A stretch of 64,000 nt of DNA from Acidobacteriota bacterium (GTDB taxonomy: Bacteria; Acidobacteriota; Terriglobia; Terriglobales; Acidobacteriaceae): positions 62,001-126,000 of the forward strand of contig JABCZH010000007.1 in the NCBI GenBank assembly GCA_013289795.1, given 5' to 3'. The position numbers and the translations under genes were made by a program. This document shows, in pieces, positions 652-15,948 of this stretch (positions are counted from its first letter, which is position 1; every line of letters starts with the position of its first letter). The notes beneath the pieces are model-generated. The model searched no databases. It had not been told where the DNA came from and was given only the letters and a program-made list of their open reading frames with translations.

Positions 652-2235
652 CTACGGGTTACGCTTCCGACCGCTCCGTCTTGCCAGTCTTTGCCGTATG
701 AAGTCAGTGAGCGCAATTCCCTTCAGCTTCTGTTTGTTTCCATCAACTTTGACCCAGGCGTCACCGCCACTGGTGTAGTATGGCTCAGCTGAGTGAGAAG
801 CTGGCACAATCATTTCCACGACACATAGATCAGGCACTTTCTGCCCGTGCTCATCATGGACCTCGTGAATCTCTACTCGGTACCTCGAAGGATCAACTCT
901 TGGCTCAATCTGATTTAGTTTTGCGCTAACGTCGCGCCTCACCTTATCGCGATCTTGATAGCTCAAGCGGACGCCGACAACAATTCTGTCCCTGTCTCTG
1001 ATGCCCCAAAGAATCCTGCCACCCTCACTATTCAAAAAGGAGACTGCATATTCGTCAGATGTGTTCACAATACTGCTAACCGCGCCGGTCGGGCTCTTGA
1101 TTTCCTTGAACTCAAAATGTCTTGTTTCCTCGAAAGGTACTTCATGGTCCAGGATAAACTCTATTTGGCCCATCGAGACGAAGTCGTCTATCCTGACGGC
1201 CACTCGCTTAAACTCAGCTCGTTTAACCGGGATGGGACTGAGGCTGTCGGCATCACCCACTGAGAACTTCATAGGCTGAGTGTGCCCGAACTCCCGAATA
1301 AGCCTTTGGGTGGTGATTTCGATGGCTTCTTTGGACGTGTCGCATGCAATCCACCGTCTTTGGTGACGCTCGGCTGCCACAACGGTCGTGCCGGAGCCAC
1401 AGAATGGGTCCAGTACGACTTCGCCCTCGTTTGATCCTTTATACAAAAGTCTTTCCAGCACCCCCAGTGGTTTCTGGGTTGGGTACTGTGTGTTTTCCTT
1501 GGATGCCGGGGAGAGGCGGGGGATATCAGTCCAAATAGTTCCGACCTCAACACCCTCGTTTTCATTCAAGAACACCTTGAGTCTTGGTACTCGCTCTTTC
1601 CCACTCTGATAGATCCTACCGTCCTGTTCCAGCTGCTGAAGTGTCCCTAAGCCGAAACGCCAGGATCGGCCCTCAGCCGGCGTGATGCCGTTCCATTCAA
1701 ACTGGAGATTAGGTTGGACAACAGACGCTGTCAGATCGGCTAGAGCGAATGGGCCGCGAGTATCCGATTTCGTGAAACGTCGCCTTTCGTCACGGTTGAG
1801 GGCTCTGAAGATGGCGTTGTCCGTGGATTTGTTTGACTTACTGTAGTGAAGAATAGCATCGTGTTGCGTGCCAGATCTCCTTGTGCGCGAATGGGGTCCT
1901 TGATGGTATTTCCAGACTATCTCGTCCCTGAAGTGCGCCTCTCCGAACACTTGGTTGAGAATGAGACGGATGGAGAAGGCTGATAAAGGCTGAGCCTGAA
2001 AGAAAAGGACACCGGTTGGTTTCAAGACTCGGTGAGCCTGCTGGCAAACCCTGGAAATAAATTGCAGTTGCTGATAATCGGAGTCGTCTTCGTTTCCGGT
2101 GGATACGCTTTGCCGGATGTTTGAGCGTGAGGAAAGGGGCGGGTCCAAGTACACAAGGTCAATTGACTCTGCATCCAAGCGCTGCATCAAGTCAATACAA
2201 TCTGCCTGGAACAAAGCGTTTGGCGTTATTACCAT
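652..2235 (-). CDS. Beta-class DNA methyltransferase fused to a C-terminal AlbA_2-like domain
   Basis: A 527-residue protein. The N-terminal part is an amino-DNA methyltransferase of the beta class: the catalytic motif IV DPPL (31-34) comes first and the S-adenosylmethionine motif DPFCGSGTT (276-284) comes last, with a probable target-recognition stretch between them. DPPL rather than DPPY or SPPY leaves the base (N6-adenine or N4-cytosine) open. From about residue 369 the protein changes character. The motif RHFEFKE, then GGRILWGI and a following Val/Gly-rich strand, resemble the AlbA_2 (Schlafen-like, ATP/nucleic-acid-binding) domain. Such a fusion is unusual for a modification enzyme. The gene is divergent from the restriction pair at 2376-7900, with 140 bp between starts. 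It may protect against that nuclease or be a separate modifier. The methyltransferase call is firm; the AlbA_2 call is moderate. Confidence 0.82.
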   Translation of the reverse strand: MVITPNALFQADCIDLMQRLDAESIDLVYLDPPLSSRSNIRQSVSTGNEDDSDYQQLQFISRVCQQAHRVLKPTGVLFFQAQPLSAFSIRLILNQVFGEAHFRDEIVWKYHQGPHSRTRRSGTQHDAILHYSKSNKSTDNAIFRALNRDERRRFTKSDTRGPFALADLTASVVQPNLQFEWNGITPAEGRSWRFGLGTLQQLEQDGRIYQSGKERVPRLKVFLNENEGVEVGTIWTDIPRLSPASKENTQYPTQKPLGVLERLLYKGSNEGEVVLDPFCGSGTTVVAAERHQRRWIACDTSKEAIEITTQRLIREFGHTQPMKFSVGDADSLSPIPVKRAEFKRVAVRIDDFVSMGQIEFILDHEVPFEETRHFEFKEIKSPTGAVSSIVNTSDEYAVSFLNSEGGRILWGIRDRDRIVVGVRLSYQDRDKVRRDVSAKLNQIEPRVDPSRYRVEIHEVHDEHGQKVPDLCVVEMIVPASHSAEPYYTSGGDAWVKVDGNKQKLKGIALTDFIRQRLARRSGRKRNP

Positions 2236-2375: not shown

Positions 2376-5054
2376 ATGCCACGAAAGAAAAGAACTGGCG
2401 GGCCGCCGAAGCGTCCGATTGGCCGTTACGAACACACCGACAAGAAGCGCATCAACAATCCTCCCGTCGGTTTGGTCACGCCCCAGACTGATCCCCTGCT
2501 ACCCACCCACAAAATCTACGACTACACTCAGCCCGTCCCAACGGTAAAGCCCGGCAAGGATTTGGACTATGATCCTCATCTTGACCCGCAACTGGTCTGG
2601 GCGGGCAAGAAAGAGCACACCTCGTTCGAAGTTCATACCGCCTCGCTGCATGTTCACGAGCGCATTGACCCCTCAACCATTATCGAAGCCGTTCGCCAGC
2701 GCAACGGCAACGGACTGCCGGAGCAGCCCTCGCTTTTCGAGCGCAAGGAAGAAAACCCGCCGCTCCGCGAGGCCATTGATTTCTACAAGCACGCGCACGG
2801 CTGGTCGAACCGGCTGATTGCCGGCGATTCGCTGCTGGTGATGAACTCGTTGCTGGAGAAGGAAGGCATGGCGGGACAGGTGCAAATGGTGTACATCGAC
2901 CCGCCATATGGGATCAAGTATGGATCGAATTTCCAGCCGTTCGTGAACAAGCGGGATGTGCGCGATGGGCGGGACGAAGACCTGACCCAGGAGCCGGAAA
3001 TGATCCGGGCCTTCCGGGATACATGGGAATTGGGCATCCACTCCTATCTAACTTACCTAAGAGACCGTGCTCTCCTTGCGAAGGAACTGTTGCACGAATC
3101 TGGATCGTGTTTCGTTCAGATCAGTGACGAAAACCTGCACCGTGTAACTTGTGTTCTTGATGAAGTGTTCGGGCCGAGCAGTCTTATCTCCATAATCGCG
3201 TTTAGGAAAACGACTAGTGCTTCGGGCGATTTGCTCTCTAGCGTAAGCGATTACCTGCTGTGGTATGCCCGCGATGGACAGAAACTGAAGTATCGCCGCC
3301 TCAACGTTGCCAAGCGGCTCGGTGGTGTCGGTGCTTCTCAGTACACATGGGTCGAGCTGCCCGACGGCCGAAGGCAAGATTTCGGTTCCGCAGAAAGATT
3401 GAACAGCGCGCCAGCGGGTTCGCGCATTTTTCAGCACGATAATCTCGTTAGTCAGAGACCGGCACAGGGAACTGACGTTAGAGAATTTCACTTCGAGGGC
3501 AAGGAGTTTGCGCCGGGTAAAGGGACATTCAAGACGGACCTGAAGGGCCTCAAACAGCTTGCGGCAGCACGTCGCTTGATGGCCCTTGGAAATACTCTGC
3601 GGTATGTTCGTTATCTAGACGACTTCTCCGTGTTTCCAATATCGAACCTGTGGGATGACACTAGCATTTCAGGATTCGCGAGCCCTAAATCTTACGTAGT
3701 CCAGACTGCACCCATCATCACCCAGCGCTGTCTCCTTATGACCACCGACCCCGGCGATCTCGTCCTCGATCCCACCTGCGGCTCCGGTACCACCGCCTTT
3801 GTTGCCGAGCAGTGGGGCCGCCGCTGGATCACCTGCGATACTTCCCGCGTCGCCGTGACACTCGCCAAGCAGCGCCTCATGGCCGCCGACTTCGATTACT
3901 ACGAACTCGCCCATCCCCAGGAAGGCATCGGCAGCGGCTTCAATTACAAAAAAGTCCCGCACGTCACCCTGAAATCCATCGCCAACAACCCCGAGATTCG
4001 CGAGGGCATGACTCGCGAGCAGATTGACGCCGCCATCGCCCGCTACGCCGACCAGGAAACGCTCTACGATCAGCCTTACATCGACAAGTCCCGCGTCCGC
4101 GTCACCGGCCCGTTCACGGTTGAGGCCGTGCCCGCTCCGACAGTCAGATCGCTCGAAGACATTGAAGTAAGAGGCTCCGAAGCAACACCGGGCAAGCCCC
4201 AGCAATCCCTGGCAGATTTTCGCCACGCGGCCACGCCCTTGCTTGACGCTTCCATCACCCGCTCCGGCCCCACACTCCGCCACACCGAATGGCGCGACGA
4301 GTTGCTGAAAACCGGTATTCGCGGCAAGGGAGGTCACAAGATCGATTTCTCTCGCGTCGAGCCGCTGGCTGGAACACGCTGGCTGCATGCCGATGCCGAA
4401 ACCCAAGGCGTAAAACCAGAGCGCGTCGTCATTTCCTTCGGCCCGGAATTCAGCCTGCTGGAGCAGCGCCAAGTCGAGCTGGCATGGGAGGAAGCACGAA
4501 CCCTCAGCCCGAAACCGGCCATTCTACTATTCGCGGCTTTTGAATTCGATCCCGAAGCCGCCAAAGATATCGACGGCCTGACCAAAGAAAAAACCGGGAT
4601 GACTTTCCTTACCGCCCAGATGAACGCCGACCTGCTCACCGAAGACCTCAAGAAGAAACGGGCCTCGAACCAAAGCTTCTGGCTGGTGGGCCGTCCCGAT
4701 GTCGATTTGCGGCGTATTAAAGACAAGTGGGAACTCGAAGTCCGAGGCTTCGACTATTACAACACGCGCACTGGCACGATTGAATCCGGGGATACATCGA
4801 AGATTGCCATGTGGCTGCTTGATACGGACTACGACGGCCGGAGTCTTTATCCGCGACAGGTCTTCTTCCCCATGGCCGATGATGACGGCGGCTGGGCGCG
4901 GTTGGCACGCAATCTGAAAGCGGAGATCGATCCAGAGCTGATTGAATCTTACCGCGGCGTGGTGTCGTTGCCGTTTGAGGCAGGCAAGTACATCGCCGTG
5001 AAGGTGATCGACGATCGAGGGATTGAGAGTTTGAAGGTAGTGGAGGCTAAGTAG
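2376..5054 (+). CDS. Type III-like site-specific DNA methyltransferase (Mod subunit)
   Basis: An 892-residue beta-class amino-methyltransferase. Motif IV DPPY is at 175-178, preceded by MVYI. The S-adenosylmethionine motif DPTCGSGTT is at 465-473, after a long variable region that probably reads the DNA target. DPPY with this order fits N6-adenine methylation, as in type III Mod proteins. About 170 residues before motif IV and about 400 after the SAM motif are extra compared with small orphan methyltransferases. The C-terminal extension may dock the nuclease partner. The stop codon TAG (5052-5054) shares its last G with the GTG start of the next gene, so translation is probably coupled and the two proteins made in fixed ratio. 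The start ATG follows a GCACGCAAGAGG stretch. Confidence 0.88.
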   Translation: MPRKKRTGGPPKRPIGRYEHTDKKRINNPPVGLVTPQTDPLLPTHKIYDYTQPVPTVKPGKDLDYDPHLDPQLVWAGKKEHTSFEVHTASLHVHERIDPSTIIEAVRQRNGNGLPEQPSLFERKEENPPLREAIDFYKHAHGWSNRLIAGDSLLVMNSLLEKEGMAGQVQMVYIDPPYGIKYGSNFQPFVNKRDVRDGRDEDLTQEPEMIRAFRDTWELGIHSYLTYLRDRALLAKELLHESGSCFVQISDENLHRVTCVLDEVFGPSSLISIIAFRKTTSASGDLLSSVSDYLLWYARDGQKLKYRRLNVAKRLGGVGASQYTWVELPDGRRQDFGSAERLNSAPAGSRIFQHDNLVSQRPAQGTDVREFHFEGKEFAPGKGTFKTDLKGLKQLAAARRLMALGNTLRYVRYLDDFSVFPISNLWDDTSISGFASPKSYVVQTAPIITQRCLLMTTDPGDLVLDPTCGSGTTAFVAEQWGRRWITCDTSRVAVTLAKQRLMAADFDYYELAHPQEGIGSGFNYKKVPHVTLKSIANNPEIREGMTREQIDAAIARYADQETLYDQPYIDKSRVRVTGPFTVEAVPAPTVRSLEDIEVRGSEATPGKPQQSLADFRHAATPLLDASITRSGPTLRHTEWRDELLKTGIRGKGGHKIDFSRVEPLAGTRWLHADAETQGVKPERVVISFGPEFSLLEQRQVELAWEEARTLSPKPAILLFAAFEFDPEAAKDIDGLTKEKTGMTFLTAQMNADLLTEDLKKKRASNQSFWLVGRPDVDLRRIKDKWELEVRGFDYYNTRTGTIESGDTSKIAMWLLDTDYDGRSLYPRQVFFPMADDDGGWARLARNLKAEIDPELIESYRGVVSLPFEAGKYIAVKVIDDRGIESLKVVEAK

Positions 5055-7900
5055 TGAGTACCAGTCACAATCCCGGCATTGCCACCATCGATCAACTCAT
5101 CATCAATTCTCCATACGAAGAGCCGACCGAGCACTGGAAATACCATCGCGAAACGCGCCTGTTTACGCGCGAACCCGAGCGGCGCAAAGCTGGTTATATT
5201 CGGGCGTCGGATTCCTCGCGATCATTCGATGATCCCGGCATTTTCGTGGAGTTGCCGCTGGTCAACAAGATTCGCCCGCGGATCAACGCTTGGCGGCGAG
5301 CCGACTATCCGGGTGCGACTGGCATCACGAAGCGACTCTTGCAACATTGGCGCGACCACGAGCAGCGGGAAGACCGACGTTTTTTCTTCTGTCAGCTTGA
5401 GGCCATTGAAACTCTGATCTGGACGGTGGAAGCAGCGCCTTCGGAGCGAACGGGTATTGACATTCCCAGTGACGGCGGGCCGTTTACGCGGATGTGCTCG
5501 AAGATGGCGACCGGCTCGGGCAAGACCATCGTCATGGCGATGCTGATCGCCTGGCAGGTGCTGAATAAAGCGACCTATCCACAGGACAAGCGTTTCTCCA
5601 AGAACATTCTGATTATCGCTCCGGGGCTCACGGTTAAGAGCCGTTTGGAAGTCCTGATACCTAGTAGTCCGGGAAATTACTACAGCGAGTTCCAGATCGT
5701 TCCGCCGGGCCTCGAAGACAAGTTGCGCCAGGGACAGAGTTGCCGCGTGATGATCCACAATCGGCACAAACTGGATTGGGAAACCGAAGAACAGGTGGCC
5801 CGAAAGCGCAGCGTGGACAAGCGCGGAGCCAAAAGCGACGAGGCTTATGTACGCGACGTGCTGGGCGAAATGGCTTCTGCGGAGAACATCGTCGTGATCA
5901 ACGATGAAGCCCATCATGCCTGGCGAGTGCCACCAAAGAGGAAGCTTCCCGGAGTTTCCAAAGAGGAATTAAAAGACGCGGCCAACTGGATTGAAGGCTT
6001 GGACCGCATTCATCGGGCGCGTGGCATTCTGACTTGCTTCGACCTGACAGCAACGCCCTTTGCTCCGACTGGCAAGAAAAGTGGCGATGAAACGCTTTTT
6101 GGATGGATCGTAAGCGACTTTGGATTGAATGATGCAATTGAATCTGGCCTGGTGAAAACGCCGAGAGTGGTAATTCGCGACGACGGCGAACCCGGGGCTA
6201 ACTACAAGTCGAAGTTCTACCACATCTATGCGGACTCCGACGTAAAGACCGATCTCAACCGGAAGGCTGAACCGCAGGTACCATTGCCGGATTTGGTGAC
6301 GATTGGCTACTACTTCTTGGGAAAAGACTGGCTGGAAGCGAAGAAACGATGGAAAAAGGAGAAGCAGCCGACCCCGCCGGTGATGATTACGGTGGCCAAC
6401 ATTACCCACACAGCCGCACGCGTGCAATTCGCTTTCGCGCACAAGAAAATTTTCATCGAGGAACTGTGCGACGAAGACAGGATTCTGCACATCGATTCAA
6501 GAGTCCTGGGTGAAGCGGAAGAAGAAGATGACCCGGTGCAGTTAAATCTGACCGCGCTCGATTTGGAGTCCGAAGATTCGGAGGGCGAGGACGAGAGCAC
6601 TCCCAAGCGCAAGCTCTCCAAGAAAGAGCAAGCTGAGAAGTTACGGCTCCAGGTAGATACAGTTGGCCGTCCAGGAACGCGGGGCGCTCAGATTCAGAAT
6701 GTAATCTCCGTCGGAATGCTTTCTGAAGGGTGGGACGCCAAGACCGTCACCCACATCATGGGGCTGCGGGCATTCACTTCGCAGCTTCTGTGCGAGCAGG
6801 TTGTGGGGCGAGGTTTGCGAAGGGCGTCATACGAGGTTGACCCGAAGACTGGGCTCTTCCAGCCCGAATATGTCAACATCTTCGGCGTTCCCTTCACCTT
6901 TCTTCCTCACGAGGGCACAGGAGATGGGCCGGCCCCACCTCCTCCGGCTCCTAAGACCCTTATTGAAGCGCTGCCGGAGCGCAAAGCGTACGAGATCAGC
7001 TGGCCGAATGTTCTGCGTGTTGACCACGAATACCGCCCCCAACTGTCTCTCGATATCCCGAAGGTCCCGCTACTGATGCTCAACGCCTACGAGACACCCA
7101 CTCTGGCTCAGCTTGCGCCGGTCATCGAAGGCAAACCCGATGTAACGCGAATTACTGAGATCGTGATCCGAGACCTGGGCCAGAAGTTTCGGATGCAGAA
7201 GATCATCTTCTCAATCGCAAGCGATGTATTCGATCAGATGAGGACCACATGGAAGGGCAGCCAGGAATATCTTCTTGCCCAACTTATCCGCTTGGTCGAA
7301 CGCTTCATTGAGAGTGACAGAGTCCGCGTCGATCCGGATCTATTCAACAATGACGACTTAAGGCGGCGAATTGTTATTACGCTGAATATGGCGAAGGTGG
7401 TCGAACACATCAGGCAGGCGATCCGCTTCGCAAATGCGCTGACACTGGTTCCCGTCTTCGATACCGAGCGGCCGATCCGTTCCACCGGCGACATGCTGCC
7501 ATGGCGAACAGGCAAAGCGTGTGAACATACCAACCATTCGCATATCAACATGTGTGTATTCGACAGCCGATGGGAAGCAAATGAAGCTTTCGAACTTGAC
7601 CGCAATCCCTATGTGCGTGCGTGGGCCAAGAACGATCACCTGAACTTTGAGATTGCTTACTCGTTCCGCGGTATTGTCCACAAGTTCCGGCCGGATTACC
7701 TGGTTCGACTGGCAAATGGCAAGATGCTGGTTCTTGAGGTAAAGGGCCAGGACGATCAGCAGCAGCAAACTAAACGCGAATTCTTGGCCGAGTGGGTCCG
7801 GGCTGTGAATGGTCACGGCGGTTTCGGCGAGTGGGCCGCGGACGTGTCACGGCACCCTAATGACCTGCTTGACATTCTGGGGAGACACAGCAAACCGTGA
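5054..7900 (+). CDS. Superfamily 2 helicase-nuclease, type III-like restriction subunit (Res)
   Basis: A 948-residue protein starting with GTG. The order is: short N-terminal region with a Q-like motif (FFCQLEAIETL, from about 111), Walker A ATGSGKT (152-158), DEAH-box NDEAHH (283-288), helicase motif VI QVVGRGLRR (about 582-590), and a C-terminal PD-(D/E)XK nuclease core with D881 and E895-V-K897. This is the layout of type III Res subunits and related single-chain restriction helicases: ATP-driven translocation plus DNA cleavage. An acidic, low-complexity stretch lies near residues 490-525. It overlaps the upstream methyltransferase gene by one base. With that gene it makes a complete restriction-modification pair, and all catalytic motifs are intact. 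The exact type (III or a type III-like family such as BPTD_3080) cannot be settled by eye. Confidence 0.88.
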   Translation: MSTSHNPGIATIDQLIINSPYEEPTEHWKYHRETRLFTREPERRKAGYIRASDSSRSFDDPGIFVELPLVNKIRPRINAWRRADYPGATGITKRLLQHWRDHEQREDRRFFFCQLEAIETLIWTVEAAPSERTGIDIPSDGGPFTRMCSKMATGSGKTIVMAMLIAWQVLNKATYPQDKRFSKNILIIAPGLTVKSRLEVLIPSSPGNYYSEFQIVPPGLEDKLRQGQSCRVMIHNRHKLDWETEEQVARKRSVDKRGAKSDEAYVRDVLGEMASAENIVVINDEAHHAWRVPPKRKLPGVSKEELKDAANWIEGLDRIHRARGILTCFDLTATPFAPTGKKSGDETLFGWIVSDFGLNDAIESGLVKTPRVVIRDDGEPGANYKSKFYHIYADSDVKTDLNRKAEPQVPLPDLVTIGYYFLGKDWLEAKKRWKKEKQPTPPVMITVANITHTAARVQFAFAHKKIFIEELCDEDRILHIDSRVLGEAEEEDDPVQLNLTALDLESEDSEGEDESTPKRKLSKKEQAEKLRLQVDTVGRPGTRGAQIQNVISVGMLSEGWDAKTVTHIMGLRAFTSQLLCEQVVGRGLRRASYEVDPKTGLFQPEYVNIFGVPFTFLPHEGTGDGPAPPPPAPKTLIEALPERKAYEISWPNVLRVDHEYRPQLSLDIPKVPLLMLNAYETPTLAQLAPVIEGKPDVTRITEIVIRDLGQKFRMQKIIFSIASDVFDQMRTTWKGSQEYLLAQLIRLVERFIESDRVRVDPDLFNNDDLRRRIVITLNMAKVVEHIRQAIRFANALTLVPVFDTERPIRSTGDMLPWRTGKACEHTNHSHINMCVFDSRWEANEAFELDRNPYVRAWAKNDHLNFEIAYSFRGIVHKFRPDYLVRLANGKMLVLEVKGQDDQQQQTKREFLAEWVRAVNGHGGFGEWAADVSRHPNDLLDILGRHSKP

Positions 7901-8243
7901 GGATGTTGCAGGTACCGTTCCACCTCGGTAAGCATGCTACCGATTAGGCCCCGGCGTGAGCATGATCTGAGCAACCTGGAAAATTTATCGAGCGGTCTAT
8001 GGACTGTCCACACCCCCAACCGACCACCGTTTTTGCCCCCCTGGGTCGGCCAAAGCATAAGCGGAGGCTGTGACCGTTTTTGTGTCGTTGTTTGTGTCGT
8101 AACCTGGTCTGAGCACCCCAGTCAACGCGTGTCCGCTCGTGTCATCTCCTGCCCTCTGCACTTCGTGTAAATGGTAGGCACCTCAAGCGTTACTGTTCAC
8201 TTCTGGCCATCCGAGTCATTTGCTGTCCCCATCATTCGGGGAA
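7901..8243. other. Non-coding right end of the genomic island
   Basis: This is a 343-bp gap between the restriction gene and the tRNA fragment. No convincing gene is present; the short open frames have no recognisable content. It contains a direct repeat (8079-8100) and a 5-bp hairpin, TCCCC at 8226-8230 with GGGGA at 8238-8242, immediately before the tRNA homology begins. Such gaps next to attachment sites often carry integrase arm-binding sites, but this is inference. Confidence 0.5.
8079..8100 (+). repeat. Direct repeat of TTTGTGTCGT near the attachment site
   Basis: TTTGTGTCGT occurs at 8079-8088 and again at 8091-8100, a 12-bp period. It lies about 145 bp inside the presumed attachment site. 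It could be an arm-type recombinase site or chance. Confidence 0.4.
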
Positions 8244-8288
8244 ATGGCATGGAAGAGGTCGTCGGTTCGATCCCGACCAGGTCCACCA
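8244..8288 (+). other. Displaced 3' half of tRNA-Ala(GGC): attachment-site scar
   Basis: The sequence reads as a tRNA from the anticodon loop to the CCA end. Loop ATGGCAT is at 8244-8250 with anticodon GGC at 8246-8248, followed by stem strand GGAAG, variable loop AGGTC, T arm GTCGG-loop-CCGAC (8261-8277), acceptor strand CAGGTCC, and ACCA (8285-8288). U70 in the acceptor strand fits the G3-U70 identity pair of alanine tRNA. The bases before the loop (CGGGGAA) cannot pair as the 5' anticodon strand (CTTCC expected), and no D arm or 5' acceptor strand is found upstream. It is therefore a fragment and not a gene. Integrating elements duplicate the 3' part of the tRNA they enter, so this marks the island's right boundary. 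The intact tRNA should lie to the left, outside the window. Confidence 0.85.
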
Positions 8289-8312
8289 AATTCCTCAACA
8301 ATTCCATTCTGC

Positions 8313-9638
8313 TTAGCGGTTGAAAGGGTATTCCTGAATCCAGTGGAAGCCGCGGTTGAGTAGCAGGAACTTGCTGCGGTCAACCAGGCGTAATTGCATG
8401 TGGATTTTGTGGCTATCCATGTTGCCGTCGAGGATCAATTGATCCTCTGCCGCGCGCTGGAAGGTGAAACTGGCTTTCCAGTTCTTGTCGCTGCCCTTGG
8501 TCAGCGCGATTGTCTTGTCCTTGGCGTTGATCGAGGCGCGATAGTGGGCGAATGAATCGTCCATGCGCTGAAAGGCCATCTCGTCGGGAAAGTCAAAAAT
8601 GGCGCGGCGCCAGCGGTCGTAATCAATGAGAAGGGGTGAGCGGAGCTGGCTGTCTATGGAAAGCTCGTCCACGTTCCAGATTCCGTAAAGTGCCGACTTC
8701 GGGCGTGCGCCGCCATAAGTGTGCCAATCGTTCCACCCGCTATAGGCATTCATTCCGAGCAGCCAGACACCCCATATGATCTGTGCGATGAGTGCGATAC
8801 GGTTGGCACGGCGCGTGTTGAAAAGTTGAGGTTGCGTGGAAGGCGCAACGATGCGATTGCAGAAAAAGAAGTCGGCCAGCCGCTGAACCTCGGGCGCGAG
8901 CAGGAACAAGCTCATCAGAATGATGTGGAACGAGAAAAGCTTGACCGGAACGTCGTAGGTCATATTCAGCATGAAGACCTGAGTCATGGCTGCCAGGGAA
9001 ACCAGCGCCCCAGGCATGGTTGTCCGGGGAAAGATGAGCAGGATTCCACCCAGCATTTCTACGCACCCGGCAAAGATTTCATAGCCGGGGGAAGCGCCGA
9101 TCGAAGACCATAGAACTGCCATCGGAGAAAAGTCCCGGAAGGGCTCAAGCAATCTGGTTAGATACGGGTACGGCATTTGCAAAGGAATGACCTTACTCAT
9201 GCCGTACGCAATCAGTTCGGAGGCAAGCGCAAAACGAATGAACAGCAGAAACCATTTGTATAACGCGACATAGTTTTCACATTTGCGGTCGAAAGCCGAC
9301 CAAACACCCGCCGCCAGTGCGGCGACCACGAGCAGCCAGAAGGCTAAGACCCAGTCGAACGTCTTGTCACCGCTGCCGCTGTCCGTGTAGACGAGCGGAA
9401 GCTTGGCATGGAAGACATGTGCGGCAGTCCAGAAGGTGATCTGTCGCATCGGCCAGAGTGTGCTTGGGTCCGGGATGTCTACTTTTGGAATAGGGAATAG
9501 GCCCCCCAGGATTTGGTTGGTAAGGCAGAACAGTCCGAAGTACACGAAACAGACGCGAAACGCGACGCGGCAGGCAAGGCCCCACTGCGGCGTATGCGAA
9601 TCTTCTTGGAACTGAGCGATCTGGGTCTGGGTAACCAT
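8313..9638 (-). CDS. DoxX-like multi-pass membrane protein
   Basis: A 441-residue protein with about seven hydrophobic segments in its first 300 residues (around 30-50, 95-115, 130-150, 190-215, 220-250, 285-305) and a soluble C-terminal region. The helix pattern with a MSKVIPLQMP stretch and a Gly-rich following helix resembles the DoxX superfamily of acidobacteria, whose role is largely unknown. The C-terminal 130 residues look like a small beta-rich domain. It is the first chromosomal gene right of the island scar and is divergent from the M23 peptidase gene. Membrane location is firm; family assignment is moderate. Confidence 0.65.
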   Translation of the reverse strand: MVTQTQIAQFQEDSHTPQWGLACRVAFRVCFVYFGLFCLTNQILGGLFPIPKVDIPDPSTLWPMRQITFWTAAHVFHAKLPLVYTDSGSGDKTFDWVLAFWLLVVAALAAGVWSAFDRKCENYVALYKWFLLFIRFALASELIAYGMSKVIPLQMPYPYLTRLLEPFRDFSPMAVLWSSIGASPGYEIFAGCVEMLGGILLIFPRTTMPGALVSLAAMTQVFMLNMTYDVPVKLFSFHIILMSLFLLAPEVQRLADFFFCNRIVAPSTQPQLFNTRRANRIALIAQIIWGVWLLGMNAYSGWNDWHTYGGARPKSALYGIWNVDELSIDSQLRSPLLIDYDRWRRAIFDFPDEMAFQRMDDSFAHYRASINAKDKTIALTKGSDKNWKASFTFQRAAEDQLILDGNMDSHKIHMQLRLVDRSKFLLLNRGFHWIQEYPFNR

Positions 9639-9747: not shown

Positions 9748-10650
9748 GTGCTCACTTGCCGAAAGATCGCGGCGTTGCTGTTGATGGTCATCTCCCCTCT
9801 CGCTGCCGGCAATGCGGCTGCAACGAAACCCGGGAATCAAAGTCTCCATTCCTGGTCGGTGCGCTGGCAGCCAAAGCGGGTGGTGAATGGATCGCCAGTA
9901 ATGTTGGAGGTGAGTTCGCCGCAGAGATTGGAATCTCTTTCAGGAAAATGGCTGGAGCATGATGTGTTCTTTTTCTTTGATCCACCTAGCAAGACTTGGC
10001 GAGGAATCGCCGGTGTCAGCCTCGAAACAAACCCTGGCAAATATGTCTTAACCCTGGATGGGAAGACAAAGAGCGGTAATGAGATTTCGTTTCAGGAGTC
10101 GATCCCAGTTGGGAAAGCGAAATATCGCCAGATCGCCGTAACCGTTCCCAAGCAGTACACGGAGCCAAGCCCGGAACAACTGCATGAGATTGAACAGGAC
10201 AAGACCCTCAAGCAGCGCGTGCTTGCGCACGTCAGCCCGGAACGCGATTGGTCAGGGAAGTTTCTTCCGCCTGTGAATGCTCCGATTTCCGACGTTTTCG
10301 GTACTGCTCGGGTTTTCAATGGTAATGTCCAGAGCGTTCACCAGGGGCTCGACTTCGGCGTGCCAGCCGGAACGCCGGTCGCTGCGCTCAATTCCGGAAC
10401 CGTTTTGCTGGCGCAGACGCTCTTCTTTGAAGGCAATTGTGTGGTGCTTGACCATGGTCAGGGACTGCTCACCATCTATATGCACCTGTCGAAGATCGAA
10501 GTGAAAGAGGGCGAAGTGGTGAAGCGCGGACAGCAGATTGCCCTGAGCGGAGGCACCGGACGCGCCAGCGGACCGCATCTGCACGTGGCCGTACGTTGGC
10601 AGGGAATCTATTTGGATCCGGCGATTCTGCTGAGCTTGAGGATGCCGTAA
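9748..10650 (+). CDS. Secreted M23 (LytM) family metallopeptidase
   Basis: A 300-residue protein with a GTG start and an N-terminal signal peptide (basic, then hydrophobic to about residue 25). The C-terminal third is a LytM domain with the zinc and catalytic pattern H198-x3-D202 and H277-L-H279. It should cut peptide bridges in murein or act in the periplasm on cell-wall peptides. The middle region (30-170) is probably an Ig-like or beta domain of unknown job. A later ATG at 9784 would remove half of the signal peptide, so the GTG is preferred. The stop lies 12 bp from the stop of the convergent helicase gene. Confidence 0.85.
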   Translation: MLTCRKIAALLLMVISPLAAGNAAATKPGNQSLHSWSVRWQPKRVVNGSPVMLEVSSPQRLESLSGKWLEHDVFFFFDPPSKTWRGIAGVSLETNPGKYVLTLDGKTKSGNEISFQESIPVGKAKYRQIAVTVPKQYTEPSPEQLHEIEQDKTLKQRVLAHVSPERDWSGKFLPPVNAPISDVFGTARVFNGNVQSVHQGLDFGVPAGTPVAALNSGTVLLAQTLFFEGNCVVLDHGQGLLTIYMHLSKIEVKEGEVVKRGQQIALSGGTGRASGPHLHVAVRWQGIYLDPAILLSLRMP

Positions 10651-10662
10651 GGATCTGACGTA

Positions 10663-13600
10663 TCAGTCCATCGCCAGCGATTGTGGCAGGGAGGGATGTT
10701 CGGCCGCCTGAACTGCCACACCATCACGGAAAGTCACAATCTTGCCTGAAATGGCGGGCACGCGTTCCCCAGGGACGATGATGCCCACAAGGTTCAAGGG
10801 ATCGGCGGCGGAAAGCGTGATGGTCTCCTGGGTGGGCGGCAGTTTGCGGGCGGCGCGCAGGGATTCGACGGCTACAGGCAGAGCAAATTGCTCACCCACG
10901 AAACCATCCACAAAGCGGCCGCCGCGGATTTCTCCACGGTCTTCGATGCGGCGATAGGCGACTTGCAGTTCGCGCCACTTGGGTAGGTTGGTTTCGCGGG
11001 CAAGCAAGTCGCGGAACACGATCCCATAACGCTTCAACAGCATCCAGCAGGCGGCCTCGACCGCCCGCGTTCGTTCCACAGCTTGATCGGTATAAAGCAA
11101 CGCCCACCGCCCGGAGTTGTGCCGGGGACGCGCACTGCGCCCACTACCTTGCCCGGCGCGGCGTTTGGGATCGATGAGCGAGCGCAGATTGTCGAAGCCG
11201 TCGGCTGTCACCACTCCGGCAGCCACCAGTTCCCAGAGCGCCGTTTCCACTTCAGCCTTCAGCTTGTCGGTGCCGCGAACAATGTCGGCGAAGAAGGACG
11301 CGCCCCGCTGCCGCAGGAAATCCAACACCTGGCGTGCGCCTTCACTCAGACCGCGGGCTTCGGGTTGCTGGCTGGCCGAATGTTGCGGCATCATCCAGTC
11401 GGCTTCTTCGCGAATGAAAAATGTGATTGGCGCTACGCTGGTAGGAATCACGCGCCGCTTGCCGGCGGCTGAATCCTCGAGAGTCGCGGGATGAGGGGAC
11501 AGACGTCCCCAGCCAACCGCTCCTGTGAGGCAGAGCTGATCGAGCCACTTGGGATCGTAATCGGCGATGCGGCGGGCCAGAATCTGGCGCTCCCAGGCAT
11601 TAGCGGGAATTTCAAATCCCTGAAGCTGGCGCACGATCTCGAGGGTGGCGCGCTCCCCCTGGACCTGGGTTCCAGGGGCGATATGCTGCCAGCGTAAAAG
11701 CCACTGCATGAACTGGGCGGATGTGACCGGCTCAATCTGTTTGCGGAGTGTGGCAACGGTGAGGCGATGGATGCGCGCCAACAATCGCCGTTCGCACCAC
11801 TCGGGGTGCTCGGAGTGACCACCCGTGAAGTTTCCCCGCAAAATCGCGCCGCTGGCTTCCATGCGCAGCAATGCAGTATCGATTTCAGACGAAGGCAGCC
11901 CCAGCAATTCGCCCAGTTGCCCGGCAGTGGCAGGACCGAGGTGCGACATCCAGCCGGTGACTAAAGCCAGCAAGGCGTCTTCGCGGGAGGGAAGGGGGGT
12001 GTCCAGTTCTGCAACCGGGCTATCGAAAGTCGCGTTGGAAAAGAGCAGAGAGAAAGTCTTCGCCCGCTCTGCCGCGACCCAAAAGTGCCGCTCCTTGGCG
12101 ACGGCGCTTGCTGCTCTCCCATCTCGAACCAGTTTCTCAAATGCGGTAGACCATTGTGAAATGGCAAGGCTCGCGTAGGAGCAGACGCCCTCGCTTGTCC
12201 GGCCGAGCGAAGTTTGACTATCGCTGGGCATGGCAATCAACGTATGCAGGACATCGTGCAATTCGTCGGCATCGCGCACATCCGGCCAGGCTTCTTCGCG
12301 GACTTGGGCAATCGCCGCTGGATCGAGCTTGCCAACCTCTTCGAGAACCGATTCCGGCAGCACGCGGCGCATCTCGACAGCACGAGCACGGCGTTCCTCG
12401 AGCGGGGCATCGTCGAGGTATGCGTACGGATTCGCGTTCAGAATCTCATGGGAAAACTGCGACGGCACAGGCGTGTCTACGGCGACGCAGCGGATGCGGC
12501 CTTCGTCCATATCGCGCAATAGCTTCTTCAGGCCGTCCAAATCCATGGCCTCGGTCAGAACATCTTTCATTACTTCCTTGATCAGGGGATGATCGGGAAT
12601 CTGAATATCACCTTCGATGTTCTCCTGACACGCGGCGACGTCGGGAAACACGGAAGCCATCAGATCATCGGAACGCATGCGCTGAATCTGTGGTGGGACC
12701 TTCTTGCCGCTTTGAAAACGCAACAGGGCGAGGGCACGGCCGGCGTCCCAGCGCCAGCGGGTGGCGAAGAACGGCGAGGCCAGCGCGGCCTGCTCCAGAA
12801 TCGGCTGGACAGTTTCTGCGTTCAAGAAGTGGAACACATCGGCGAGAGGAAAGCTGTGCTGCTCGGCTAGCGCGATGTTCAGGCCGTTGTCGGTGGCCGC
12901 GGCCTGCAATTCGAAATTGAAGCTGCGGCAGAAACGCTTGCGTAGAGCCAATCCCCAGGCTTTGTTGATACGCCCGCCGAAGGGAGCATGAATCACCAGT
13001 TGCATGCCGCCACCTTCGTCAAAGAAACGCTCGGCAATGATGGTGTCTTGCGTCGGTACGTCTCCCAGCACGGCCCGGCCTTGCAGAATGTATTCAATCG
13101 CTTGTTCGGCGCCGGAATCGTCGAGACCACATTCTTCTTTCAGCCAGGCGACGGTCTCGGCGACTTCGGGCTGGGCCTGCGAGACGCCGACGGGAAAAAT
13201 GTTGCGCAGGCGGTAGCTAATCTCTTTTCGCAGGTCCGCCAGATGGAAAGAAAGTTCTTGGGTACGCGCCGGGGCTTCGCCGCGCCAGAAGGGAACGGTG
13301 GGCGGCGCGCCGTGTGCGTCTTCGACCAGCACGCGCCCGGATTTGCTCTCAACCCGGTGAATGCGCCATGAAGTATTGCCGAGCAGCATGATGTCGCCGG
13401 CGTTGGCTTCCACCGCGAAGTCTTCATCCAACGTGCCGACCATAATGCCTTCCGGCTGGGCAACAACCGTAAATAATGCGGTTTCCGGAATCGCACCGCC
13501 GCTGGTGATGGCTGCCAATCGGCTGCCTCTCCTTGCGCGCAGTTTGTGATTCACGCGGTCGCGATGCAGGTAGGCGCCATAGCGGCCGCGACGGGCAGCA

Positions 13601-15024
13601 ATCCCTTCGGAAAGCATTTCGAGGATGGAGTCGTAAGTCTCGCGAGTCAGATTGCGGTAGGGATAGGCGCGCTTGACCAAAGCGAACAGTTCATCTTCAT
13701 CCCAGCCCGAATCTTCTTCTCCAGGGGGGACCGTCGTTCTGGTTGTTCCTGCGGCGCACATCGCTACGATCTGCTGGGCGAGGATGTCAGCGGGCGCTTC
13801 GGGAATCATCAGAAGGTCAAGATCTCCGTGGCGGATCGCTCGCACCAGCGCGGCGCATTCCTGCAACTCATCGCGAGTGGTGGCAAAGAATCGCCCTTTG
13901 GGAATTGCCCCACGCCAGTGACCGGAACGGCCAACCCGCTGGAGCCCAACTGCGATCGCGCGCGGTGAGCTGATCTGAATGACTAGGTCAACCGTGCCGA
14001 TGTCGATTCCGAGTTCCAATGACGCCGTGGCGACCAGCACCTTCACCTGGCCGTCTTTGAGTTTGTTCTCGGCGGTGAGACGCAACTTGCGCGACAGGCT
14101 GCCGTGGTGCGCAGCGACGTTGTCCTCACCCAATCGTTCCGCCAGTTGGTGCGAAACTCGCTCGGCTAGACGGCGTGTATTCACAAACACCAACGTCGAG
14201 CGGTTCTGGCCGACAAGTTCCACAATTCGGTCATAGATTTCGTCCCACATTTCGTTGCTGGCGATGGGGCCAAGTTGGGTGGCGGGAACTTCGACCGCGA
14301 GGTCGAGAGGCCGCTTGTGTCCGACGTTGACAATGACCGGTTCGGGCCGGCCGTTTCCAGTCAGGAAATGGGCAATTTCCTCAATAGGCTTCTGGGTCGC
14401 TGAAAGGCCGATGCGGACAAGCGGGGAAGAGTGGCAGAGTGCCTCCAGCCTTTCCAAGGACAGCGTCAAGTGCGCGCCACGCTTGTCGTCTGCCACGGCA
14501 TGGATCTCATCGACAATCACGGTCTCAACGTCCCGCAGGATCGCCCGGCTTCTCTCGGCAGTGAGGAGGATGTACAGCGACTCGGGCGTAGTCACCAGAA
14601 TGTGCGGAGGGTGTTTCAACATGGCCCGGCGCTCGTGCATCAGCGTGTCGCCGGTGCGGACTGCGGTGCGAATCTGCGGCATCAACAGGCCGCGCTGGCC
14701 GGCCATTTGCAGAATTTCGCCGAGCGGAATCTCCAGGTTCTTCTGGATGTCGTTGCCGAGGGCCTTCAGCGGCGAGATATAGAGCACCTCGGTGCGGTCG
14801 TGCAGATCGCCGGCGAGTGCTTTGCGCACTAGACGATCAATGCAAGCGAGGAATGCGGCTAGAGTCTTACCAGAGCCGGTAGGCGCGGAGATCAGCGTGG
14901 TGCGGCCAGCGAGAATGTGCGGCCAGCCCTGCTCCTGAGGCTCGGTGGGCATGCCGAATCGCTGGACAAACCAATCCCTAACCAGAGGGTGAGCCCAGGC
15001 AAGCGAGGCAGGGAAGGAGGACAT
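10663..15024 (-). CDS. lhr: Large ATP-dependent helicase of the Lhr family
   Basis: 1453 residues from ATG at 15024. The frame stays open upstream to 15537, but those 171 codons overlap kdsC and the small gene on the other strand and read as low-quality sequence, so 15024 is chosen. Walker A APTGSGKT is at 47-54, then a DEIH box, a SAT motif, and motif VI QRVGRSGH. The rest is the long Lhr-core winged-helix/beta-barrel and Lhr C-terminal region, matching the usual length of about 1450-1550. Lhr proteins are 3'-5' DNA/RNA-DNA helicases linked to DNA repair. It is convergent with the M23 gene and not in an obvious operon. Confidence 0.9.
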   Translation of the reverse strand: MSSFPASLAWAHPLVRDWFVQRFGMPTEPQEQGWPHILAGRTTLISAPTGSGKTLAAFLACIDRLVRKALAGDLHDRTEVLYISPLKALGNDIQKNLEIPLGEILQMAGQRGLLMPQIRTAVRTGDTLMHERRAMLKHPPHILVTTPESLYILLTAERSRAILRDVETVIVDEIHAVADDKRGAHLTLSLERLEALCHSSPLVRIGLSATQKPIEEIAHFLTGNGRPEPVIVNVGHKRPLDLAVEVPATQLGPIASNEMWDEIYDRIVELVGQNRSTLVFVNTRRLAERVSHQLAERLGEDNVAAHHGSLSRKLRLTAENKLKDGQVKVLVATASLELGIDIGTVDLVIQISSPRAIAVGLQRVGRSGHWRGAIPKGRFFATTRDELQECAALVRAIRHGDLDLLMIPEAPADILAQQIVAMCAAGTTRTTVPPGEEDSGWDEDELFALVKRAYPYRNLTRETYDSILEMLSEGIAARRGRYGAYLHRDRVNHKLRARRGSRLAAITSGGAIPETALFTVVAQPEGIMVGTLDEDFAVEANAGDIMLLGNTSWRIHRVESKSGRVLVEDAHGAPPTVPFWRGEAPARTQELSFHLADLRKEISYRLRNIFPVGVSQAQPEVAETVAWLKEECGLDDSGAEQAIEYILQGRAVLGDVPTQDTIIAERFFDEGGGMQLVIHAPFGGRINKAWGLALRKRFCRSFNFELQAAATDNGLNIALAEQHSFPLADVFHFLNAETVQPILEQAALASPFFATRWRWDAGRALALLRFQSGKKVPPQIQRMRSDDLMASVFPDVAACQENIEGDIQIPDHPLIKEVMKDVLTEAMDLDGLKKLLRDMDEGRIRCVAVDTPVPSQFSHEILNANPYAYLDDAPLEERRARAVEMRRVLPESVLEEVGKLDPAAIAQVREEAWPDVRDADELHDVLHTLIAMPSDSQTSLGRTSEGVCSYASLAISQWSTAFEKLVRDGRAASAVAKERHFWVAAERAKTFSLLFSNATFDSPVAELDTPLPSREDALLALVTGWMSHLGPATAGQLGELLGLPSSEIDTALLRMEASGAILRGNFTGGHSEHPEWCERRLLARIHRLTVATLRKQIEPVTSAQFMQWLLRWQHIAPGTQVQGERATLEIVRQLQGFEIPANAWERQILARRIADYDPKWLDQLCLTGAVGWGRLSPHPATLEDSAAGKRRVIPTSVAPITFFIREEADWMMPQHSASQQPEARGLSEGARQVLDFLRQRGASFFADIVRGTDKLKAEVETALWELVAAGVVTADGFDNLRSLIDPKRRAGQGSGRSARPRHNSGRWALLYTDQAVERTRAVEAACWMLLKRYGIVFRDLLARETNLPKWRELQVAYRRIEDRGEIRGGRFVDGFVGEQFALPVAVESLRAARKLPPTQETITLSAADPLNLVGIIVPGERVPAISGKIVTFRDGVAVQAAEHPSLPQSLAMD

Positions 15025-15096
15025 CCCGGATATTTTAGCGGGAAAGTATAACTTCGTAAAATGTTCGCCTATAATCAGGTCTTGGAGGGGCGTGGC

Positions 15097-15294
15097 ATGA
15101 AGCGATCGAAACCTGCCAGATCCCAGACGAAAAAGATAGGGAAGGACGAGAACCCTTTGCCGCCCGTGACCGAGGACTACATCAGCAGCCTTCGCGGTTG
15201 CTGCAAGGGCGAAGACTCGCTGGTCGAGGCCCGCGAGCGAGAGCATCGTGAGGAGAGCTTCGCTGAGCGACGCTGGAACCGGAGAGCCAGATGA
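15097..15294 (+). CDS. Small highly charged protein of unknown function
   Basis: 65 residues from ATG at 15097, chosen because GGAGG at 15084-15088 sits 8 bases upstream. An earlier ATG at 15061 lacks such a site. A TATAAT at 15070-15075 could be the -10 element of its promoter, though no good -35 is seen. The N-terminal part is Lys/Arg-rich, the middle has EDYISSLRG, and the C-terminal third is Glu/Arg-rich. The middle recalls C-terminal tails of some small antitoxins, but no toxin gene is beside it. It ends 30 bases before the kdsC ATG (6 before a possible TTG start) and may be co-transcribed with it. Confidence 0.5.
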   Translation: MKRSKPARSQTKKIGKDENPLPPVTEDYISSLRGCCKGEDSLVEAREREHREESFAERRWNRRAR

Positions 15295-15324
15295 GGTCCC
15301 TTGACGAATGCTAGAATCCCCGCC

Positions 15325-15948
15325 ATGCTTAAAGTGTCCCCCAAAGCCCGCGCCAAGAAGATCAAACTCCTGCTTTTTGATGTGGACGGCGTCCTGACCG
15401 ACGGCAAGCTGTTCTTTCTTCCTGCTCCGCCGGGGTTTCAGCAGACGACACTCGATCATGCTGCCAAGCATGGCGGACAGGGTGGTTTTGGACTGGCCAG
15501 TTCTTCGATGATCGAGGCCAAGGGCTTCCATGCGCATGACGGCACAGCCATCTCGCTGGCCCGTCTAGGCGGGATCAAGACCGGACTGATTACCAAACGC
15601 ATCTCGGAAACAGTCGCCGTGCGAGCTCGTGATCTGAAGCTGGACCACATCCACCAGGGCATTCAAGACAAACTGACGGTCCTCAAGGACATTCTGCGGC
15701 AGGAAGGCTTAAGCGCCAGTGAAACAGCGTTCGTCGGAGACGACGTTATCGATCTCCCCGCGATGCGCCATTCGGGTTTTGCTGTCGCTGTCGCCAACGC
15801 CCGCGCCGACGTGAAAAAAGAGGCACATTACGTTACCCCCCACGCCGGGGGGGACGGCGCTCTGCGAGACGCGATTGAGTATGTCTTGAAAGCTCAGGGG
15901 AAATGGGATCGGGTGGTGGAACAGTACATCGGGGAAAGAAGCTTTTAG
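15325..15948 (+). CDS. kdsC: Kdo-8-phosphate phosphatase-like HAD protein
   Basis: 207 residues from ATG at 15325; an in-frame TTG at 15301 is an alternative. The HAD nucleophile motif DVDGVLTDG lies near the N-terminus, followed by a Thr/Lys site in the LITKRIS stretch and the metal motif FVGDDVIDLP. The spacing, lack of a cap domain and HDG motif are those of KdsC, which removes phosphate from Kdo-8-P to give Kdo for the lipopolysaccharide core. It is slightly longer than the 188-residue E. coli protein, with a short insertion after the nucleophile loop. kdsA and kdsD lie about 7-10 kb to the right on the other strand. The stop codon lies inside the left arm of an inverted repeat. Confidence 0.85.
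   Translation: MLKVSPKARAKKIKLLLFDVDGVLTDGKLFFLPAPPGFQQTTLDHAAKHGGQGGFGLASSSMIEAKGFHAHDGTAISLARLGGIKTGLITKRISETVAVRARDLKLDHIHQGIQDKLTVLKDILRQEGLSASETAFVGDDVIDLPAMRHSGFAVAVANARADVKKEAHYVTPHAGGDGALRDAIEYVLKAQGKWDRVVEQYIGERSF

Follow-up and report, generated by a model that had tools for sequence, protein, structure and literature searches.

A displaced tRNA-Ala(GGC) half as the right attachment scar of a genomic island with defence-like cargo in an Acidobacteriota draft genome

The 45 bases at positions 8244-8288 of the window, a stretch of 64,000 nucleotides from an Acidobacteriota bacterium, are almost certainly the attR scar of a genomic island integrated into a tRNA-Ala(GGC) gene. This reading is carried by both ends of the element, by an integrase gene beside a restored tRNA gene, by repeats inside either end, by conserved flanks and by parallel elements in other genomes. 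The host genome (G000) is a draft of 4,674,986 bases (4.67 Mb) in 33 contigs, and the window represents positions 62001-126000 of contig C7.

The two ends of the island

The features defining the ends are as follows, positions being those of the window unless a contig is named.

8244-8288, + strand: attR core, the displaced 3' part of tRNA-Ala(GGC) (positions 32-76), 45/45 identical to C7:48761-48805
8289-8298, + strand: extension of the homology beyond CCA, 9 of 10 bases as on the attL side
8080-8104, + strand: repeat pair TTGTGTCGT(N3)TTGTGTCGTAACC, putatively arm-type, starting 164 and 152 bp left of the core
C7:48820-50022, - strand: tyrosine integrase of 400 aa (PF00589, E 1.1e-23; phrog_1 integrase, E 8.1e-58)

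The fragment had been described in the first-pass annotation as the 3' half of tRNA-Ala(GGC) lacking its 5' half, and this description was borne out. The 45-nt core gave a single match in the window with 0 mismatches and 0 matches in 100 shuffles, and the anticodon GGC, the T arm, U70 and CCA were all read directly from the sequence. As had been proposed, the homology sets in at the anticodon loop, at the first base of the 7-nt loop; the sequence preceding 8244 bears no match to the 5' half of the tRNA, and no complete tRNA was reported in the window by ARAGORN. The best other match in the genome was C7:48761-48815 on the same strand (54/55 nt, 98%), and in pairwise alignment the agreement between attL and attR stops after the 10-base stretch right of CCA. 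Searching positions 7000-9500 against Rfam at a loose threshold returned four matches, all below gathering score and none of them to the tRNA family; three overlap the fragment, the best over it being permuted tmRNA (18.1 bits against a gathering score of 47). Given the 45/45 match to tRNA-Ala(GGC), a tmRNA identity was rejected.

The intact same-strand tRNA-Ala(GGC), expected left of the window with an integrase gene beside it, was located by ARAGORN on the same contig at C7:48730-48805, and the stop of a convergent tyrosine-integrase gene lies 14 bases after its CCA. The integrase contains Arg, Lys, His-x-x-Arg, His and Tyr residues (read by eye) that we take to be the usual tyrosine-recombinase set. 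Past the integrase come a 203-aa protein (no Pfam match), a pair of HTH_17 genes with one excisionase-like member (phrog_66, E 9.7e-10), and an AAA_25 ATPase. No further tRNA-Ala part was detected at E 0.01 between the intact gene and the displaced half. With the intact tRNA and the tyrosine integrase at the left end, the fragment stands as the right border of a tRNA-inserted island, as first suggested. From core to core the island measures 21,528 bp, of which the last 8.3 kb lie in the window, in keeping with the earlier estimate of at least about 8.3 kb of foreign DNA.

The pair TTGTGTCNT(N3)TTGTGTCNTAACC is present in the same orientation at both island ends (C7:48852-48876 and C7:70080-70104, the latter corresponding to window 8080-8104). 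Repeat pairs were first spotted by eye and then tested using a pattern and a reversed control. The pattern matched exactly twice in the whole host genome, once inside each island end, and the reversed control gave 0 matches there; among the 61 genomes, three were matched. Allowing up to three mismatches, one match each was obtained in the window and in locus L039, and 0 in shuffles. An automated repeat search in which each end was taken alone did not list the pairs. The pair at the integrase end sits within the last codons of the integrase, so that coding accounts for part of its conservation; next to the displaced half, the copies fall outside the listed island genes. The pairs resemble integrase arm sites, and the integrase would bind them. 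A repeat pair also adjoins tRNA-Asp(GTC) in one relative (L171:1501-1648, G011:C23).

The uninterrupted site would have read tRNA-Ala(GGC), then AATTCCTCAACAATTCC, then the DoxX-like gene. The attP of the island would have carried the tRNA-Ala(GGC) sequence between the anticodon loop and a point just beyond CCA, and the island's tyrosine integrase would have recombined it with the chromosomal tRNA-Ala(GGC), strand exchange presumably falling within the 7-base anticodon loop. At the left end, the tRNA gene (attL, C7:48730-48805) would have been made whole by the island copy, and the native 3' half displaced by 21.5 kb to the right, to window 8244-8288. During insertion, the integrase would sit on the arm-type repeats within each end, which would bring the two ends together; for excision, the integrase seated on the repeats would act with an excisionase-like protein. 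Recombination of this kind is established for the class and presumably applies to this element, and we infer that the island may be mobile at present.

Cargo and flanking genes

The following genes were found on either side of the border.

54-587, + strand: hypothetical protein, cargo, no Pfam match; a longer frame starts left of the window
652-2235, - strand: DNA methyltransferase-Schlafen/AlbA_2 fusion, cargo (Pfam N6_N4_Mtase, E 1.4e-41; SLFN_AlbA_2, E 3.9e-15)
2376-5054, + strand: type III DNA methyltransferase (Mod), cargo (Pfam N6_N4_Mtase, E 6.8e-28; PADLOC MTase_III, E 1.2e-163)
5054-7900, + strand: type III restriction (Res) subunit, cargo (Pfam ResIII, E 4.8e-10; PADLOC REase_III, E 4.5e-8)
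8313-9638, - strand: DoxX-like membrane protein, first gene right of the border (weak Pfam DoxX match, E 7.5e-4, 20.5 bits against a cut-off of 23.6)
9748-10650, + strand: M23 peptidase, chromosomal right flank (Pfam Peptidase_M23, E 8.2e-31)
10663-15537, - strand: large ATP-dependent helicase, chromosomal right flank (NCBIfam PRK09751.1, E 1.1e-204, 682.5 bits against a cut-off of 1496)

Restriction genes left of the border and chromosomal genes right of it, the arrangement given in the first-pass annotation, were recovered as the type III Mod/Res cargo and the M23/helicase flank; the helicase is one that we take to be Lhr-like. The methyltransferase-Schlafen/AlbA_2 gene is divergent from the Mod/Res pair. 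The 290-aa frame at L040:1715-2587, which is the longer form of the 54-587 protein, had no NCBIfam match. Beyond the genes of the left end, the cargo includes ASCH, GNAT-PIN and Ser/Thr kinase-HD proteins, and an operon-like set on the - strand (L039:10970-16474, C7:54970-60474) comprises kinase-HD (945 aa), GNAT-PIN (736 aa) and ASCH (155 aa). Two of these proteins correspond to phage-defence candidates of PADLOC (GNAT-PIN to PDC-M11A and ASCH to PDC-M11B). The cargo would have a role in defence, likely as anti-virus genes.

No relaxase or conjugation family was found by Pfam among 16 island proteins; matches to relaxase PF03432 were confined to contig C4, outside the island, which was not classed as an ICE. 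Similarly, PHROGs returned no phage structural family among 10 island proteins, a set without the Res subunit and several smaller frames, and the island was not classed as a prophage. The G+C content is 0.53-0.58 in the window part of the island and 0.56-0.61 in the right flank, a mild difference only. An integrative island carrying defence-like genes is the most fitting description of the element.

The insertion site in relatives

Relatives lacking the island had been expected to carry the DoxX gene directly after the tRNA, an arrangement that was not found. A DoxX homologue at E<=1e-10 is present in 8 of the 61 genomes, the window's own included, and no tRNA-Ala was detected in 10 loci (2.7-4.3 kb) around the relatives' DoxX copies. 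DoxX being unhelpful as an empty-site marker, the M23 and helicase genes were used instead. The expectation held in its broader form, with the helicase as flank marker beside tRNA-Ala(GGC) in relatives, and failed only in its DoxX-adjacent wording. The helicase lies 3' of tRNA-Ala(GGC) or its displaced half in G004, G006, G007, G011 and G025; in G023 it is about 9 kb away. Left-flank genes (a sigma factor and its neighbours) were found upstream of tRNA-Ala(GGC) in many of the relatives fetched. Left-flank genes, intact tRNA and helicase occur together in G007 and G025, the helicase lying across the tRNA from the left-flank genes (about 4.7 and 1.7 kb from the tRNA, respectively, by the tblastn match), with no integrase-like frame and no PF00589 match at the site. 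The site is unoccupied in these two genomes; as the 60 relatives included none of the same genus, it is seen empty in other genera of the family only. The tRNA 3' flank of G025 contains a decayed tRNA-like stretch (by eye), and this site may have eroded after older insertions.

The helicase gene of G001 and G029 lies 5' of tRNA-Ala(GGC), an arrangement suggestive of inversions. In G006 a displaced tRNA-Ala half stands beside an M23 homologue, as in the window, but without a DoxX match; displaced half and intact tRNA are 19 kb apart in opposite orientations (G006:C23:315585-334656; L085, L086). Inversions at the tRNA-Ala site are likely in all three genomes.

Displaced halves were surveyed in 31 of 44 matching relatives, a non-random choice by match quality, paired matches and contig size. 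Eight of the 31 carry displaced tRNA-Ala halves (G006, G009, G011, G015, G019, G021, G027 and G028), that of G011 being imperfect (shifted one base), and G004 has a T-arm piece of tRNA-Ala. The left contexts of these halves differ from that in the host genome, for which reason they are read as scars of other insertions; G027 and G028 hold the same element type. The occurrence of the fragment in island-free relatives, named in the first-pass annotation as contrary evidence, was accordingly not clearly encountered: halves are present in relatives, with different left contexts.

An integrase-like frame or remnant was found at the 3' end of tRNA-Ala(GGC) in 5 of 28 relatives, some of which (G001, G014, G018, G030) offered under 2 kb of downstream sequence. 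A sixth relative, G015, was missed in this survey and detected with PF00589, so the survey is not exhaustive. G015 contains several integrase-like frames near tRNA-Ala(GGC), and its intact tRNA-Ala(GGC) and displaced half are about 107 kb apart on one strand (G015:C24:53926-161557; L105, L106), possibly as a large or compound island. The tRNA-Ala(GGC) gene looks like a hotspot for more than one kind of element.

The host genome itself has 14 PF00589 matches (E<=1e-6, some of them short pieces), 11 of which are no more than 200 bp away from a tRNA gene. Ten of these 11 are convergent at the tRNA 3' end, and four are near contig starts. The tRNA genes concerned are at the following positions.

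C1:490940, C3:211422, C4:31230, C7:48730, C8:61792 and C9:1712
C10:8082, C11:1893, C12:132303, C14:1525 and C17:8457

In the contig pieces fetched, displaced 3' halves of tRNA-Arg(ACG), tRNA-Lys(TTT) and tRNA-Cys(GCA), starting from positions 33, 31 and 28 near the anticodon loop, were found at 11-20 kb, together with a weaker one of tRNA-Ser(TGA); the first three are scars of the type seen at tRNA-Ala. Tandem scars occur at tRNA-Ala in G027 and at tRNA-Arg and tRNA-Lys in the host genome.

Related elements, alternatives and known systems

With 84,980 species represented by one genome apiece, a scan for the integrase yielded 19 loci. Seventeen of them, some being remnants only, reach at least 74% in their best segment; the other two (21-25% identity, Bacteroidales) were left out. 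The 17 loci come from Acidobacteria, Terriglobia and like-named MAGs, one being labelled Formivibrio. Close homologues or remnants adjoin a tRNA-Ala(GGC) core in 13 of the 17. Among the remaining four, L153 ends 29 bases past the match, no tRNA is seen at L155 and L156, and L158 has a 75% integrase homologue beside tRNA-Val(GAC) (L158:7238-8558).

A displaced half was also present at L152, L154, L157 and L162 and in G028, which belongs to another genus. In these five elements the integrase is 79-86% identical (84-86% in G028), one being a remnant only. The G028 match lists one in-frame TAG; the frame read alone has 387 residues and ends in a stop. The identity of attL and attR starts at the same base (ATGGC) in all six elements, the G000 island included, whose core-to-core lengths range from 5,955 to 21,528 bp. 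Each end holds TTGTGTC twice at a 12-bp interval, the offsets being +46/+58 relative to attL and -175/-163 relative to attR (-174/-162 in L162 and -164/-152 in the G000 island). In L157, one of the four copies (TTGTGTCAC) was unlisted at one mismatch and was read from the sequence itself.

By BLASTP at 1e-5, only the integrase links the island with 14 other complete or partial elements. The frame set used omitted the two HTH genes; a separate tblastn search (E 0.01) found weakly related sequences for them in G028 and at several further loci (29-50% over 34-80 aa), and none for the ATPase or the 203-aa protein. The AAA_25 family is common to the ATPase and genes of L152 and L157. Among the cargo of the other elements are repeat proteins of the Sel1, TPR, NHL and FG-GAP types, and G028 has two serine recombinases; 10 such cargo proteins had no PADLOC match at 1e-4. 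Defence cargo is thus taken as a feature of the G000 island and not extended to the family.

These data bear on other origins of the fragment. It is very improbable that the half was left by an earlier, unrelated insertion or by partial duplication of tRNA-Ala, with the left integrase belonging to a different event. Such a history would fit a hotspot at which 8 of 31 relatives carry displaced halves and tandem scars exist, but the repeat pair at the fragment is that of the integrase end and has only two copies in the genome, a like pairing recurs in five other elements, and the interval holds no further tRNA-Ala part at E 0.01. Retention of the half-tRNA for a function of its own, e.g. as a small RNA, could be read into its 100% identity to gene positions 32-76; that identity is, however, expected of an attachment core and a recent insertion, and the explanation is extremely improbable. 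An assembly or sequencing artefact, in which the half would belong to a complete gene, might be suspected in a draft of 33 contigs, but its probability is practically nil, as both copies lie deep within one contig of 307,778 bases, the left flank of the half is non-tRNA and the layout resembles the ends of other elements.

We lean slightly towards viewing the island as a member of an undescribed, widespread Acidobacteriota family of small integrative elements, in which integrase and attP are common and nearly all of the cargo is exchanged, this member carrying stacked anti-phage systems; as part of the same joint reading, the family attP would consist of the tRNA-Ala(GGC) half and the TTGTGTC repeat pairs. 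On this view the family may have been re-aimed at other tRNAs, as these repeats or a close integrase, found next to tRNA-Asp and tRNA-Val, suggest, and a change of tRNA target within the integrase family is possible (tRNA-Asp in G011, tRNA-Val in L158). The analysis provides exact ends for an island of defence-like cargo in an apparently little-studied soil phylum and presents one tRNA gene as a repeated landing site across genera. The six natural attL/attR pairs and the predicted integrase-binding repeat form a basis for excision tests and island searches.

Insertion of genomic islands in tRNA genes is well known, and their sublocation was reportedly treated by Williams in 2002. tRNA-targeted insertion is a textbook mechanism, of which this island is a clean new example, the principle being already known. 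An attP of the lambda type has a core with arm-type integrase sites. The island is similar in having a core and direct repeats on both sides, and unlike lambda attP in that the repeat sequence and spacing belong to its element family and the binding is predicted.

Candidate islands associated with tRNA genes are reported for another acidobacterium (PMC3174227). Among the titles listed on acidobacterial tRNA genes (tRNA-Ala included), integrases and genomic islands, none describes the element family, which is not proof of its absence in print. Partial tRNA genes created by the insertion of mobile elements are treated for a set of 20 Thermococcaceae genomes (PMC9897764); the fragment studied here has the same type of origin, in a bacterium instead of archaea. 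The Islander paper (PMC4383910) defines islands by an intact tRNA, a displaced 3' fragment in the same orientation and a tyrosine-integrase gene between them, and its table counts 2083 anticodon-centred islands against 1836 at the T stem region. The island shows the same signature, an anticodon-centred site and a length inside the 2-200 kb filter (PMC4383910). Residing in a draft genome, it would probably be lacking from the whole-genome set of Islander, from whose islands, as there described, it does not differ in kind (PMC4383910).
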